Below are positions 22,381-46,663 of a stretch of DNA of 61,616 bases, in pieces. Position 1 is the first letter of the stretch, and each line of letters opens with the position of its first letter. The notes beneath the pieces are model-generated. The model was not told the origin of the DNA. It made no database searches and worked only from the letters and a program-made list of their open reading frames with translations. The stretch comes from Aneurinibacillus thermoaerophilus. GTDB lineage: Bacteria > Bacillota > Bacilli > Aneurinibacillales > Aneurinibacillaceae. The translations under genes and the position numbers were made by a program. Where the stretch lies: assembly GCF_900099925.1 (NCBI RefSeq), contig NZ_FNDE01000019.1:1-61616 (forward strand), read 5' to 3'.

Positions 22381-22402
22381 CTTTCCTTGCTTACATTATA
22401 CA

Positions 22403-22442
22403 AAATAAGGTGGTTCTCTCCAAAAGAGGCCACCTTATTTCT
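22403..22442. terminator. Bidirectional terminator (22.4 kb)
   Basis: An 11-bp perfect stem AAATAAGGTGG/CCACCTTATTT (22403-22413/22430-22440). It can end the plus-strand small ORF and the minus-strand kinase gene that stops at 22460. Confidence 0.85.
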
Positions 22443-22459
22443 TATTCCTTCCATATCCT

Positions 22460-23173
22460 TCACCCTATCGTTTCCTCTCCGTTCTTAAAACGGAGCGTTT
22501 TTTCTTTATCATAAAAAAACAGGCGGAACAACGAAGCTCCAAATGATTTGACTGAAAAATCTGTGTCTTTCTGACTTTCATATCTTTTTTTTACAAACTC
22601 GATGACCGACTTTGGAATTCTCTGCCGGGCAATAAAACGGTAAAATAAACGATATCCTTCTTTCAAATGCTCCCAGCGTTGGTCGCTGTCCTCTTTTACA
22701 TACTCGGAAACGTCAATTAATTTCACACCCGACTTCTGCAAAATAATATTTTTTAGATGAATGTCCCGTGGATTTAACCCTACACTGCGCGCATAGCGTA
22801 TCGCTGCGTCCACTTCTTCAATAACCCAAGGGGCAATATAAATTCCTCTTAAGAGACAGTCATACAAATTGAAACCTTGTTCGTAGCTTATCACAATAAA
22901 GTTATCGCCTCTGCCGTAAAAGCGAGGAAAATATGAGGTTTCTCCCAAGCGGCGGTACGCTTCTATCTCATTCGCCAATTTTTCTTCCCGGCCCGCCGCG
23001 TACACTTTAAATGCATATCTTCTGTGTTTCCAGTACACAAACACAGCCGCATCCGTCCCGCGTCCCACGCACTCCATCTCTTTCGGCACATACGCAATAT
23101 GCACAAGTTCATTCCCATCAACCGGGACAATTTTAATTTGCTCGATCAACGGAACGATCGGTTCCCACATCAT
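22460..23173 (-). CDS. Small protein-kinase-fold protein (YrzF-like Ser/Thr kinase)
   Basis: About 237 residues. The frame is open to 23287, but the first 38 codons lie inside a riboswitch, and the ATG at 23173 follows AAGGAAAGG at 9 bases. All kinase essentials are visible: glycine loop GRGTDAAVF, the ATP lysine in YAFKVY, the helix-C glutamate in NEIEAYRRL, catalytic NPRDIHLKNIIL (Asp and Asn), and metal-binding Asp in LIDVSEY. The C-lobe is short, as in YrzF-like or lipopolysaccharide-kinase-like folds. It is preceded by a yybP-ykoY riboswitch, which suggests manganese-controlled expression. The target is unknown. Confidence 0.8.
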   Translation of the reverse strand: MMWEPIVPLIEQIKIVPVDGNELVHIAYVPKEMECVGRGTDAAVFVYWKHRRYAFKVYAAGREEKLANEIEAYRRLGETSYFPRFYGRGDNFIVISYEQGFNLYDCLLRGIYIAPWVIEEVDAAIRYARSVGLNPRDIHLKNIILQKSGVKLIDVSEYVKEDSDQRWEHLKEGYRLFYRFIARQRIPKSVIEFVKKRYESQKDTDFSVKSFGASLFRLFFYDKEKTLRFKNGEETIG

Positions 23174-23213
23174 ACGCAACAACCTTTCCTTCGCTGTTGT
23201 TTGTATTTCTGTA

Positions 23214-23398
23214 ACAAAAAAGACCTCCGCACACCGCCAAGAAACGCCCGGGCAATGTGTGAAGGTCTTGCATACCCAATGGTTCAAAAAGGGCTCGGCA
23301 TACCGAGCGATTGCATCGCTGTATTGACGATATGCCGACCGGATTGTATCCGGTAGCTACTCCCCTAATTGGAGTCAGATTTATGTCTAACTCCAATC
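23214..23398 (-). promoter_or_regulatory. yybP-ykoY (manganese) riboswitch with terminator
   Basis: On the minus strand the aptamer (about 23366-23264) carries AGGGGAGTAGC, the CGTCAATAC segment followed by a hairpin, and GCAAGACCT. These are the conserved parts of yybP-ykoY RNAs. AAGACCT then pairs with AGGTCTT followed by TTTTTT (23216-23270), a terminator that competes with aptamer stem P1. An extra hairpin (TTGGAGT...ACTCCAA, about 23367-23398) lies 5' of the aptamer. By family knowledge Mn2+ would stabilise P1 and allow read-through into the kinase gene. Confidence 0.85.
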
Positions 23399-23652
23399 AC
23401 ACTCATATACATTACATGTCATGCCTTAACAACATTTTGTGGTTCGATAATTATTATATCACACTATCCTATTGCTTATAAGGTAAAAAAATGATCTAGC
23501 ACATTCTTCCATTTTCGGCTTAAGGCTGACTCGCTCCTCCGTCCCAGGACGTAGAAAAAATCAAACGGACGCCTGTTATAGTAAAAGTGCTTGTCAGGTT
23601 AAGATAAACTCAAGAAACGGAACATGAAACAAAAAATGAAGGAGGAAAGGGA

Positions 23653-25551: not shown

Positions 25552-27027
25552 TTAGTTAACGATCGTTTCTTGCATAAGACAAGCCATCAAGTCCTCAATC
25601 GAAGGAGCGGCGGCAACATGAACCGTGCCACAACCAACCGAGCGGACAGCATCTGCTGTTTTTTCTCCCATACAGACAAGCATTTTGGAAGAGAGGAAAG
25701 GGAGCGGGTCGATCTCCTCGCGTTCCAGTGCATCGATAAGTATAGGCACGGAAGCTGCACTCGGAAATACAATCGCATCCACTCCTGCATCTTTCAACAA
25801 ACGCACCATATTCACATTATATTCCATGCACTCTTTTTTTTCATATACAGCCAGTACGTCACATTCGCCCCATTCCGCTTCGTAGCTTTCCGTTCGCTCC
25901 ACCACCGAAACATCGCCTACGACAAGCACTTTTTCCCTATCTGCCAGTGAAGACGGTCGCTCAGAATGTAAACCCATTTCACGAAGCTTGCGCTCTGTGC
26001 GCTGAGAAAGCGTATAAAACCGTGCTTTCAGCAAACGGATATCCCGGTTGCTACGACGATATGCCGCAAAAAAGAAATCAACGCTCTCCGGGGAAGTAAA
26101 CAAAATGTGTTCATATTCCCCGCTTCGCTCGATTGTTTGCTGCACCGTCTCATCATCCCGTTCACAGACAGCAAAATAGGGGTATTCTATAACATCGGCT
26201 CCCTGTTCCGTCAACGCTTCCGCTAGGTTTCCTTTTTCTCCGCCGGTACGCGCTACAAGAATCCGTCTTCCGAACAGCGGTTTGCGCTCGAACCATTGAA
26301 TCTTGTCACGTATGCTTACAATGTCTCCCACTAGCGTAATAGCAGGGTTTTTTAAATCGGCTGCGTTAACTTCGCGCACAATCGTTTCCAGCGTGCCCTG
26401 TACAGTTTTCTGCCGCCCCAGCGTTCCCCAGCTAATAAGCACGACCGGCGTTTGAGGCTTGCGCCCGTGCTTCATCAAATTCTTACAAATATGTGGCAAG
26501 TTCTTTACACCCATATAAAAAGCAATCGTATGGATTCCAGAAAGCGATGCCCAATCGACCACCGGCTTTCCGTCCGCCGTTTTCGCATGCCCGGTCACAA
26601 TGGCAAAGCTTGTGCCGTAGTCCCGGTGCGTCACGGGAATACCTGCATACGCAGGTGCCGCAATCCCCGCAGTAATTCCTGGTACAATCTCGTATTCCAC
26701 ACCGTGCTTGGCCAACTCTTCCGCTTCTTCCCCTACCCGGCCGAATACGGAAGGGTCGCCACCTTTTAAGCGTACAACTCGTTTGCCTTCCTGCGCTTTT
26801 TGGACAAGGAGCTCATTAATCGCTTCCTGGCGCAATGTATGATGCTTCGGGAACTTGCCGCAGTAGATAAATTCCGCGTCCGGCCTCGCAAAACGTAAAA
26901 AACGCGGATTGGCCAAACGGTCATACACAATGACATCAGCATTTTTAAGGCATTCAAGTCCGCGGACAGTAATCAATTTTTCGTCTCCGGGGCCTGCCCC
27001 CACCAGATAAACTTTCCCGGTTCTCAT
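25552..27027 (-). CDS. cobA-hemD: Fused uroporphyrinogen-III methyltransferase / uroporphyrinogen-III synthase
   Basis: A 491-residue fusion. Residues 1-245 are the SAM-dependent methyltransferase SUMT (VGAGPGDEKLITVRG; VRLKGGDPSVFGR; VPGITAG), which makes precorrin-2. Residues 255-490 are HemD (RRILVARTGGEKGNLAEALT), which closes uroporphyrinogen III. The fusion supplies the corrin ring precursor from hydroxymethylbilane. It is the last gene of the operon and overlaps cbiA by 4 bases. A precorrin-2 dehydrogenase is not present in the operon. Confidence 0.94.
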   Translation of the reverse strand: MRTGKVYLVGAGPGDEKLITVRGLECLKNADVIVYDRLANPRFLRFARPDAEFIYCGKFPKHHTLRQEAINELLVQKAQEGKRVVRLKGGDPSVFGRVGEEAEELAKHGVEYEIVPGITAGIAAPAYAGIPVTHRDYGTSFAIVTGHAKTADGKPVVDWASLSGIHTIAFYMGVKNLPHICKNLMKHGRKPQTPVVLISWGTLGRQKTVQGTLETIVREVNAADLKNPAITLVGDIVSIRDKIQWFERKPLFGRRILVARTGGEKGNLAEALTEQGADVIEYPYFAVCERDDETVQQTIERSGEYEHILFTSPESVDFFFAAYRRSNRDIRLLKARFYTLSQRTERKLREMGLHSERPSSLADREKVLVVGDVSVVERTESYEAEWGECDVLAVYEKKECMEYNVNMVRLLKDAGVDAIVFPSAASVPILIDALEREEIDPLPFLSSKMLVCMGEKTADAVRSVGCGTVHVAAAPSIEDLMACLMQETIVN

Positions 27028-28436
27028 GGCTTCATCTCCCTATCAAAGGCCTGTTGCGAACAGTTCTCCTTATATTTCAAACAGGCGGAAATCCACCGTT
27101 TGACAAGAGAAGGCTGAGAAGCAAAATGAAGGTGGGTATATCCCGCCACAAGATTTTTCAGAATGACGCCTTCCCGCTTACTGCCGAATCGGCTGCGTGT
27201 TTCATACGCCGGCTGAAAATCCGCTCCTGGTTCAAACGTCGAATAGTGGAACTCATGTCCGCGCGCTATTTCCCCTTCAGAAAGCAGGAAATTTCCTTTC
27301 ATCCCGGTCACTTCCCGGTACCCAAGCGCGGCACGCTTTGTATGCATTCTCGTCCGGCCCGGAATCACTCCGACCATATGATAGCTTTCACCATCAGTTG
27401 TCACAATTTCCTCGGTCAGATACATAAAGCCACCACACTCAGCGAACGTAGGCACTCCTCTCTCGATGGCGCGCCGTATTGAAGTGCGTACGCTCGCTTC
27501 GCGGGCCAATTCTGGTGCAAATTCTTCAGGAAACCCTCCTCCGATATATAAGCCGTTCACATCTTCAGGCACCGTCTCTCCGGCCAGAGGACTGAAAAAT
27601 ACACACTCCGCTCCCGCAGCTTCCAACATTTCGATGTTTTCCTGATAGTAAAAGTTAAATGCCGCATCTTTTGCAACAGCAATACGCACGATAGGTGCTT
27701 TGTCCAAAACAATGCTATCAGCTTCAGCATTAGCCTGCGGAAGCGGTGGAATATCAGCCAATTGAAGCAGACGGTCTACATCGATATGTTGCGCAATCAT
27801 TTCCCCAAGGCGGACAAACAACGGCTCCAGTTCTCCGCGCTCTACTGCCGGAAGCAGGCCAAGGTGGCGTTCCGGAATGCGCACTTCTGGCGTACGCGTA
27901 AGTGTTCCAAGCAATGGGATGCCGCATTCTTTTTCCACCGCCTCCCGGATCAGTTTACCGTGCCCTTCGCTTCCGGCGTGGTTGGCAATCACGCCAACAA
28001 TGGAAACCTTAGGGTTAAGCATCTGAAATCCTTTGACAACCGCCGCCGCACTACGCGCCATGCTTTGAACGTTCAATACAAGCACAACCGGGGTTTGTGT
28101 AAGAATGCTGATCTCCGCCGTGCTTCCGATATCTTCCGTTGGACTCTTCCCATCATAAAGACCCATAACACCTTCAATGATAGAGATATCAGCGTCTCTG
28201 CTGGCACGGGCAAGCACGCCGCGCATAACGTCCTCTTTGAGCATCCAGCTATCCAGATTGCGTGACGGACGGCCTGTAATCGCGGTATGATATGCCGGAT
28301 CGATATAATCCGGTCCGCACTTAAATCCCTGTACGGTTAAACCTCTCTGTTTCAGTGCAGCCATTAAGCCAAGCGTAACCGTTGTTTTTCCGGCCCCACT
28401 TCCGGTCCCGGCAATAATTATACGCCTGTTCCCCAT
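27024..28436 (-). CDS. cbiA: Cobyrinate a,c-diamide synthase CbiA
   Basis: A 470-residue ATP-dependent amidotransferase that converts cobyrinate to the a,c-diamide using glutamine. Walker A (GTGSGAGKTTVTLG) is at the N-terminus. The C-terminal class I glutaminase-like domain has its cysteine in FAECGGFMYL and a His in a HLHFASQ segment. It ends the corrin ring part of the pathway. A 4-base overlap with cobA-hemD and a 17-base gap to cbiG indicate one operon. Confidence 0.95.
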   Translation of the reverse strand: MGNRRIIIAGTGSGAGKTTVTLGLMAALKQRGLTVQGFKCGPDYIDPAYHTAITGRPSRNLDSWMLKEDVMRGVLARASRDADISIIEGVMGLYDGKSPTEDIGSTAEISILTQTPVVLVLNVQSMARSAAAVVKGFQMLNPKVSIVGVIANHAGSEGHGKLIREAVEKECGIPLLGTLTRTPEVRIPERHLGLLPAVERGELEPLFVRLGEMIAQHIDVDRLLQLADIPPLPQANAEADSIVLDKAPIVRIAVAKDAAFNFYYQENIEMLEAAGAECVFFSPLAGETVPEDVNGLYIGGGFPEEFAPELAREASVRTSIRRAIERGVPTFAECGGFMYLTEEIVTTDGESYHMVGVIPGRTRMHTKRAALGYREVTGMKGNFLLSEGEIARGHEFHYSTFEPGADFQPAYETRSRFGSKREGVILKNLVAGYTHLHFASQPSLVKRWISACLKYKENCSQQAFDREMKP

Positions 28437-40207: not shown

Positions 40208-40287
40208 CGGTAAACAAAAGCGCAAAATCAATCTACGTGCCTGTGTTATATGCCCCTTTGAACACCTCACCATCCTCGTGGTTTTGC

Positions 40288-40480
40288 AGTGTTTCTCTTC
40301 ACGGCAGGTCTCCTGGCTTCGGGTCTGACGAACAACCGCCCCCTTCCCATTTCACAGGCAGAAATAGTGGGTTTAATATCAGCAGTGTTCTTCCCTTCAC
40401 AGTGGCGGGACCGCGTCGGATTTGCACCGAACTTCCCTTTTAAGTTCTCCATTCCAGCATCTGGTGGAACTTTGAACACC
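40288..40480 (-). promoter_or_regulatory. Cobalamin (AdoCbl) riboswitch
   Basis: The minus strand holds the B12 box GCCAGGAGACCTGCC (about 40302-40317), the core GGTGCAAATCCGACGCGGT and CCCGCCACTGTGA. The ends pair through GGTGTT and AACAC. It precedes cbiM and a terminator, so bound cobalamin should shut off the whole 15-gene operon by premature termination. Confidence 0.95.
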
Positions 40481-40755
40481 GTAAAGTTTACATATACAGT
40501 TGTAAGTGAGCCCATGATAACATGAATTTGAAAATAATTCTACTGGTAAACACTTATTTTTTGAAAAATTATAGACTTTAGTACAGGAAAGAAATCAGAA
40601 TACTAGTAACAGCGCCAACCTAATTTATAAGACTCAGGCTTACTATTACTTTCATGTAGATCGAATCAAAAGAAATAAGAAACCCTGCCTTTTGGCAGAC
40701 AGGGGCGAAATTCAACTATTTAAGGCGATTAAAGTTTGGTATGGGTACCATCACA

Positions 40756-43360: not shown

Positions 43361-43515
43361 AAAATCCCCGCCATCCATATGGATAGCGGGGTATCTTTTA
43401 CCATTTCATTAAATTTTTATTGCAAAATTTCAGCTTTTTTAGTGAGATAGTTGCAAATATGATTTTGCAAGCCAGCTATAAGGTTGTTTCTATCCCTCAT
43501 AGGTAAGCTACAAAC
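43361..43515 (-). repeat. CRISPR-repeat-bearing unit, copy A
   Basis: About 150 bases, repeated with roughly 70-75% identity at 46503-46663. Reading the minus strand: a 30-base CRISPR-type repeat (43486-43515), about 95 bases of conserved spacer-like and flanking sequence including ATCTCACTAAAAAAGCTGAA, and a terminator stem CCCCGC.ATCCATATGGAT.GCGGGG (43366-43391) with a T run. No second full repeat and no cas gene is present. Confidence 0.75.
43486..43515 (-). CRISPR. Isolated CRISPR-type repeat A
   Basis: A 30-base repeat; the minus strand reads GTTTGTAGCTTACC, then TATGAGGGATAGAAAC. It is close to the type I-B/III repeat family of Firmicutes that ends ATTGAAAC. It is identical to the repeat at 46634-46663. 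It stands alone, so this is not an array. Confidence 0.65.
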
Positions 43516-46502: not shown

Positions 46503-46663
46503 AAAACACCCCGCCATCCGGACGACCGGATAGCGGGGTATCTTTTACCCCTTTCTTGAATTCTGGTTACAAAACTTCAGCTTTTTTAGTGAGATGGTTG
46601 CAGCGATGATTTGTCAAGCCAATTTATACGATTGTTTCTATCCCTCATAGGTAAGCTACAAAC
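46503..46663 (-). repeat. CRISPR-repeat-bearing unit, copy B
   Basis: Second copy of the unit at 43361-43515. It has repeat (46634-46663), conserved block ATCTCACTAAAAAAGCTGAA, and terminator CCCCGCCATCCGG/CCGGATAGCGGGG (46509-46538) followed on the minus strand by GTTTTTATTTG. The bases next to the repeat differ more between copies than the block beyond. Confidence 0.75.
46634..46663 (-). CRISPR. Isolated CRISPR-type repeat B
   Basis: A 30-base repeat identical to 43486-43515. It stands alone, with no neighbouring repeat within spacer distance. Its 5' end (minus) supplies the stop codon of a scaffold-like fragment. Confidence 0.65.

Follow-up and report, generated by a model that had tools for sequence, protein, structure and literature searches.

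A candidate manganese-responsive yybP-ykoY riboswitch precedes an atypical kinase gene in Aneurinibacillus thermoaerophilus and recurs beside this kinase family in Bacilli

The described yybP-ykoY riboswitches, such as those of B. subtilis ykoY and meeY and of H. halodurans ykoY, share the L1 motif GGGGAGUAG, the L3 motif UCGUCA, and the 3' strand GCAAGACC, and the class combines a P1/P3 architecture with an overlapping terminator. In the literature, as far as the available texts go, the targets of Mn2+ riboswitches are transporters and membrane proteins of metal delivery, among them TerC, MntP, UPF0016 (MneA), a Mn/Ca ATPase, and similar membrane proteins. A comparative study from 2013, whose main text does not mention the word 'kinase' in the available version, noted that transporters seem to account for a large share of yybP-ykoY targets (PMC3766115). 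For H. halodurans ykoY, the accessible part of the source predicts an ON switch responsive to Mn2+ and connects raised YkoY production with a terminator deletion (PMC10898510). A literature search, based on partial texts and with Dambach 2015 and Price 2015 outside its scope, found no paper linking a yybP-ykoY switch to a kinase.

The locus described here lies in a window of 61,616 nucleotides, the whole stretch of A. thermoaerophilus DNA that was analyzed. It shares with the class the L1, L3, and 3' motifs, the P1/P3 architecture, the overlapping terminator, and a predicted ON switch, whereas its target is a kinase instead of a TerC-, MntP-, or ATPase-type membrane protein (Table 1). We consider it highly probable (roughly 85%) that a Mn2+-responsive, transcription-terminating yybP-ykoY riboswitch of the ON type controls this atypical RIO/Hanks-like kinase. 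The anatomy of the leader, the predicted mutual exclusion of aptamer and terminator, and a recurrent linkage of switch and kinase are documented here by sequence comparison; Mn2+ is the presumed ligand by virtue of class membership.

Table 1. Features of the kinase locus, with positions in the window.
Feature	Positions	Strand	Description
Putative promoter of the kinase leader	23453..23458	-	TATAAT -10 box after TGA (extended -10); box TGATATAAT
Upstream hairpin P0	23366..23399	-	14 bp; predicted fold -17.6 kcal/mol
yybP-ykoY (Mn2+) aptamer	23258..23373	-	Core GGGGAGUAG..GACC at 23264-23365; P2 hairpin; P1 of 3 bp
Intrinsic terminator	23216..23269	-	Stem of -29.2 kcal/mol, then TTTTTT; 5' arm begins at the aptamer's AAGACC
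Ribosome-binding site AGGAAAGG	23183..23190	-	9 nt ahead of the kinase ATG; from sequence
Atypical small kinase gene	22460..23173	-	237 aa; ATG at 23173; Lys56, Glu69, Asp137, Asn142, Asp154
Terminator-like inverted repeat and T run after the kinase	22402..22440	-	AATAAGGTGG..CCACCTTATTTT; read by eye

The first-pass annotation had recognized the aptamer from the motifs GGGGAGTAGC, TCGTCAATAC, and GCAAGACCT, all of which were found at 23365-23262 on the minus strand. The RF00080 covariance search that it had proposed gave a divided outcome: the match was significant in a query of 801 bases (E-value 2.1e-7), but its 33.7 bits lay under the gathering score of 45, and a default Rfam scan therefore listed no aptamer in the window. 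With stricter filters, RF00080 matched 180 of 398 Bacilli genomes at E<=0.05 and exceeded its cut-off in 33; the control that accompanied the search of the window's own genome responded in nine of 14 well-known genomes and passed the cut-off in two. Since 180 of the 398 genomes have a match but only 33 pass, the cut-off cannot decide in this case, and the Rfam miss was rejected as a refutation of the aptamer. A covariance model, R1, was therefore built from 29 aptamers that precede TerC genes in families other than that of the window (alignment A5). The sole place in the window reported by R1 at E<=10 was the aptamer itself, which scored 55.0 bits with an E-value of 4.5e-12 over 61.6 kb and of 5.7e-11 in a search space of 772 kb, as expected of a class member. 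The leader also folded with unusual stability (z -6.7), and none of 200 shuffles was equally stable. With the motifs, the R1 score, and the fold in agreement, the earlier identification of the aptamer was borne out.

Every L1, L3, and GC.AGACCUU column without variation among the 29 TerC aptamers was kept in the window, where GGGGAGUAGC, UCGUCA..C, and GCAAGACCUU represent L1, L3, and the 3' strand, respectively. Among five leaders of the Aneurinibacillus clade, 99.4% of the helix pairs were kept and three pairs had changed on both sides in a compensatory manner, with compensatory changes seen in P3; 15 of 500 shuffles reached the same level, and because five sequences are few, this is modest evidence when taken alone. 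Two P1 columns that are invariant in the TerC aptamers were altered, and CGUCAAUAC stood in the window in place of CGUCAUUAC. An aptamer that has drifted to another cation, or one that is a degenerate copy without switching activity, would be consistent with these differences, the short P1, the low RF00080 score, and the Ca2+ binding that a review, in its available text, ascribes to one class member (PMC9495176). Such drift or decay is nevertheless improbable: CGUCAAUAC was also found in other listed aptamers, the invariant columns named above are retained, and the terminators and helices have been maintained across the five leaders with their three compensatory pairs. Recent copying of the kinase aptamer from a TerC aptamer of the same genome was also considered and rejected; the two other RF00080 matches of this genome precede TerC genes, and both the P2 hairpin and the L3 variant of the kinase aptamer are absent from them.

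The 5' arm of the terminator is formed by the aptamer's own 3' strand, so that the two structures would exclude each other, and the competing terminator of the earlier description was thereby recovered as an expression platform overlapping the aptamer. In all 13 kinase leaders that were folded (the window and 12 others), the RAGACC strand was taken up by a hairpin. A T run directly followed this hairpin in nine of them and followed a second hairpin in the other four (H. okhensis, Robertmurraya, and the loci L111 and L132). By the logic of the class, for which the H. halodurans case serves as a model within the available text of its source (PMC10898510), the window leader is predicted to be an ON switch. 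At low Mn2+, AAGACCUUCACAC would pair into the terminator and transcription would end ahead of the kinase gene. When Mn2+ is high, docking of the aptamer would keep AAGACCUUCACAC in P1 and the L1 junction, no terminator would form, and the kinase would be made. The TerC consensus has the usual six contiguous pairs in P1, as do the kinase leaders of H. okhensis and P. abyssi, compared with three in the window and four in each of the genus's remaining four leaders; with a weaker P1, more Mn2+ should be needed.

Among the kinase leaders of the genus, that of the window alone has an extra hairpin abutting P1. The 3' arm of this hairpin, P0, ends in nucleotides of the P1 5' strand, and P0 is thus predicted to compete with P1. 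The hairpin noted in the first-pass annotation therefore exists and uses the P1 strand, but the case for the proposed tuning role is weak: no equivalent was found in the four relatives that share the switch (their folds reached -1.4 to -7.9 kcal/mol), and two of them offer no space for one, as their -10 box begins 24 or 41 nt ahead of the aptamer. P0 was accordingly rejected as a conserved part of the leader. In the window, 93 nt separate the TATAAT box from the GGGGAG that lies downstream of it; a convincing -35 box was not apparent for the kinase leader, and a sigma-70 scan did not list this promoter. Downstream, the repeat that follows the kinase gene was not listed by a terminator scan restricted to loops of 3-8, and the kinase is presumably transcribed alone.

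The next gene on the minus strand encodes a sigma-54 activator (22134-20686) and starts 326 bp beyond the kinase, and on the other side of the leader a plus-strand gene from 23653 belongs to a divergent PspA-type operon. Between the leader and this operon, a block at 23514-23585 on the plus strand (GGCTTAAGGC..CTCCGTCC..GGACGTAG..AAAATCAAACGG.CGCC) showed strong conservation across the very five genomes in which the kinase has the switch. In an Rfam scan of the region, the block gave a match at chance level (E-value 5.3). When its core was sought in 200 Bacilli genomes, four of the five switch genomes had it without mismatch, and the fifth and 10 others had it with two mismatches, a level at which a control was about as frequent. 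Possible identities for the block include an operator, an unusual promoter, and an RNA leader belonging to the PspA operon. Elsewhere, the window contains two CRISPR-DR2 repeats 3.1 kb apart (43486-43515 and 46634-46663, plus strand), a cobalamin riboswitch (40286-40498, minus strand), and cobyrinate synthase-like and uroporphyrinogen methyltransferase-like genes that were read by eye (25552-28436, minus strand).

The protein encoded directly after the switch had been described as a small kinase with all catalytic residues, which the family alignment confirmed: the five residues given in Table 1 were invariant in 59 of 59 sequences (alignment A4, for which 58 of 80 named kinases were used). 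They comprise the VAIK lysine, the helix-C glutamate, the catalytic Asp and Asn, and the DFG-type Asp of the kinase fold, with roles assigned by eye. No Pfam or NCBIfam model reached its cut-off for the window kinase. Pkinase (PF00069) scored 14 bits against a cut-off of 31.7 (E-value 0.033), and RIO1 (PF01163) scored 14.1 bits against 22 (E-value 0.036). In the AlphaFold2 model, which has a mean pLDDT of 91.3 and low values at residues 223-237, the protein adopts a kinase fold. When the top 1000 Foldseek rows were re-examined with VIA-align, Rio2 (Z 13.6, 3.4 A over 153 residues) and PknB (Z 13.3, 3.8 A over 176 residues) ranked highest, with RNase L, MSK1, PKR, and CurKC near them and the RNA kinase Ark1 (8yv4) at Z 12.4; no row among these 1000 identified a substrate. 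The model thus indicates a kinase fold in which the catalytic residues are intact; with Rio2, PknB, RNase L, Ark1, and others ranked closely together, it is compatible with several substrate classes. We take the family to be YrzF-like. RIO kinases can use Mn2+; use of this metal by the window kinase, which the first-pass annotation had raised, is conjectural.

The enzyme could accordingly be something other than a protein kinase, namely one that phosphorylates a lipid, a sugar, or an RNA, in which case a real switch would govern a metabolic or RNA-modifying step instead of signalling. The best NCBIfam match of the window kinase was the LPS heptose kinase RfaY, far under its cut-off (E-value 0.0011), weak Pfam matches to WaaY and APH occurred in 12 and seven of the 59 family members, the position of Ark1 in the fold list points in the same direction, and PAP2 phosphatases are operon partners of the kinase at some loci. 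The DxHxxN catalytic loop, which we presume to be APH-like, was counted on the same side. In contrast, Pkinase was the commonest Pfam match of the family (35 of 59 members at E<=0.1, best E-value 1.1e-6), RIO1 matched six of 59 at the same threshold (best 3.6e-6), and the profile of the 59 sequences found its best solved matches in protein kinases (PKC iota, E-value 4.1e-6, profile positions 29-152 of 217); Rio2 and PknB also take the first places among the fold matches, in a tie with others. A substrate other than protein is therefore a serious contender, somewhat short of an even chance. Of the link from Mn2+ to protein phosphorylation drawn in the first-pass annotation, the pairing of switch and kinase stands, but the protein substrate does not follow from a Pkinase E-value of 0.033 and a fold tied with an RNA kinase.

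Seven of seven genomes of the window's genus encode the kinase, and in five the switch directly precedes the orthologue; the two others form a separate branch. Since RF00080 with stricter filters lost the window's own match when run over 398 Bacilli genomes, aptamers were surveyed in these genomes with an exact motif pattern, which misses divergent aptamers because it is exact. The pattern matched 239 of the 398 genomes, and 150 rows were among the matches listed. All 150 were covered, seven of them through the window's genus and the others through 142 fetched regions (one with two rows). One pair of fetched rows, which came from different genomes but did not differ in the aptamer or the 60 nt beyond it, was counted once, which gave 142 distinct aptamers. 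Downstream gene families were defined by profiles of clustered ORFs, with Pfam applied to single representatives only.

Among the matches listed, TerC lay downstream on the same strand at 104 of the 142 distinct aptamers (one on the opposite strand) and the kinase family at 19 (none on the opposite strand), which makes the kinase the second most frequent downstream family of those counted in this Bacilli sample. Spo0M (12), DUF1232 (nine), DUF6376 (seven), CaCA (four), and PAP2 (three) followed per 142 listed aptamers. With the five genus members included, a same-strand kinase was found for 24 of the 150 listed rows, where about 0.05 pairings would be expected by our own estimate from genome sizes and one randomly placed kinase gene per genome. 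A second sample consisted of named kinase loci, which are close to the window protein because the best 80 of 467 relatives were kept, and some of which are shortened by contig ends. In these best 80, R1 found an aptamer upstream in sense in 12 and downstream in one; no antisense aptamer was found at E<0.01, with one weak match of 17.6 bits (E-value 0.33). The 12 include two loci that already stand in the genus count (L020 and L021, the same contigs as in genomes G001 and G002). The survey of homologous kinase genes suggested earlier thus revealed a real and recurrent pairing, and the notion that it is unique to the window was rejected.

The gene order behind the switch varied among taxa. For example, the kinase directly followed the switch in Aneurinibacillus, Halalkalibacter okhensis, and Paenibacillus abyssi, while the order switch-DUF1232-TerC-kinase was found in Alkalihalobacillus deserti, Halalkalibacter akibai, H. 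alkalisediminis, and Bacillus suaedae. The order switch-PAP2-kinase occurred in Mesobacillus maritimus, switch-DUF6376-kinase and switch-Spo0M-kinase were further orders, and a Desulfobulbaceae MAG had switch-small ORF-kinase-TerC, with an operon of TerC and the kinase also present in its sister. TerC and the kinase stood in one run in six of the 80 named loci, all six with a switch. It is conceivable that the kinase is an incidental passenger, functionally unconnected with manganese, of a switch whose main targets are other genes, as the family includes many kinase genes without a switch and the kinase was the second to fourth gene in nine of the 19 fetched linked loci. This is highly improbable, however, given that the kinase comes first after the switch in the window and in 10 of the 19 loci, and that the pairing recurs in distant branches of the kinase at a frequency far above the chance estimate.

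Several other genes were observed behind listed aptamers. The Spo0M-family genes occurred alone or before TerC or the kinase (L108, L110, L113, L116, L130, L131, L187, and L095), and a literature search found no paper naming both Spo0M and yybP-ykoY. The DUF6376 genes are lipoprotein-like (L100-L105 and L139), and several stand directly before the kinase or PAP2; no paper naming DUF6376 was found in the same manner. We take DUF6376 to be the YybP family. At a further locus (L115, G343:C14), a canonical Hanks-type protein kinase of 265 aa (Pkinase E-value 6.6e-34) is encoded by the second gene after a different yybP-ykoY aptamer, from which a small basic ORF separates it.

The linkage of switch and kinase was patchy. 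No aptamer was found upstream of the kinase in two of the seven genus members and in 68 of the 80 named loci (best 80 of 467). The aptamer pattern was present in 69 of 80 genomes taken from 108 further kinase-bearing ones, and in none of the 80 was it near the kinase, the closest distance on a shared contig being 41.5 kb (distances by script). Within the families of the listed aptamer rows, the link was found in 24 of 54 kinase-bearing genomes, a set drawn up by eye. R1 at E<0.05 detected no aptamer in 27 more kinase loci that lack a linked pattern match, seven of them from the window's family. On a kinase tree of 105 rows, of which 34 bear the switch through enrichment by choice, the switch label needs 11 changes, and at least 10 are forced by well-supported branches. 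The tree indicates that the pairing arose or was lost many times in Bacilli, with gains and losses not separable. Given this patchiness, control by Mn2+ would be one of several ways of running the kinase family.

As the pairing recurs in several other spore-former groups, Mn2+ probably controls an unstudied phosphorylation step, and the kinase would thus belong, together with TerC, to the manganese-excess regulon. TerC, PAP2, and a lipoprotein are among its operon partners, and for this reason the most likely role of the kinase may be to adjust Mn export, the cell envelope, or the metalation of enzymes that are exported. A broader reading, in which Bacilli possess a Mn-induced phosphorylation branch whose switch-controlled kinase phosphorylates a partner that serves Mn export, the metalation of exoenzymes, or the assembly of the envelope, is tentative and stands at perhaps one chance in three. 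If it held, an RNA metal sensor would feed a kinase instead of a transporter, and this kinase would be co-transcribed in many lineages with TerC, PAP2, a DUF6376 lipoprotein, or Spo0M. As the second commonest target family in this Bacilli sample, the kinase would tie metal sensing to phosphorylation, and a little-studied kinase family would gain a physiological context in manganese excess. TerC, PAP2, DUF6376, Spo0M, and DUF1232 form the set of candidate partners offered by the linkage.

The riboswitch described here adds a member to an established class, and its kinase target is unusual as far as the available texts go. The YrzF-type kinases (L242-L244) belong to the same family as the window kinase by profile (E-values 3e-52 to 6e-52) and are likewise small single-domain proteins, but they form a separate subfamily, and their 5.7-kb loci had no aptamer at E<0.05. 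The name YrzF is presumed for these kinases; the BofC and RuvB neighbors of L243 (Pfam) agree with the B. subtilis locus. The top structural row, A. fulgidus Rio2 (1tqi), shares 18% identity with the window kinase over the aligned part, and PknB, RNase L, MSK1, and others lie within one Z unit of it. Compared with the TerC operons of the Mn2+ regulon, in which TerC is the main downstream family among the matches listed, the window has the kinase alone under the switch, while two TerC genes stand under separate switches elsewhere in the genome.
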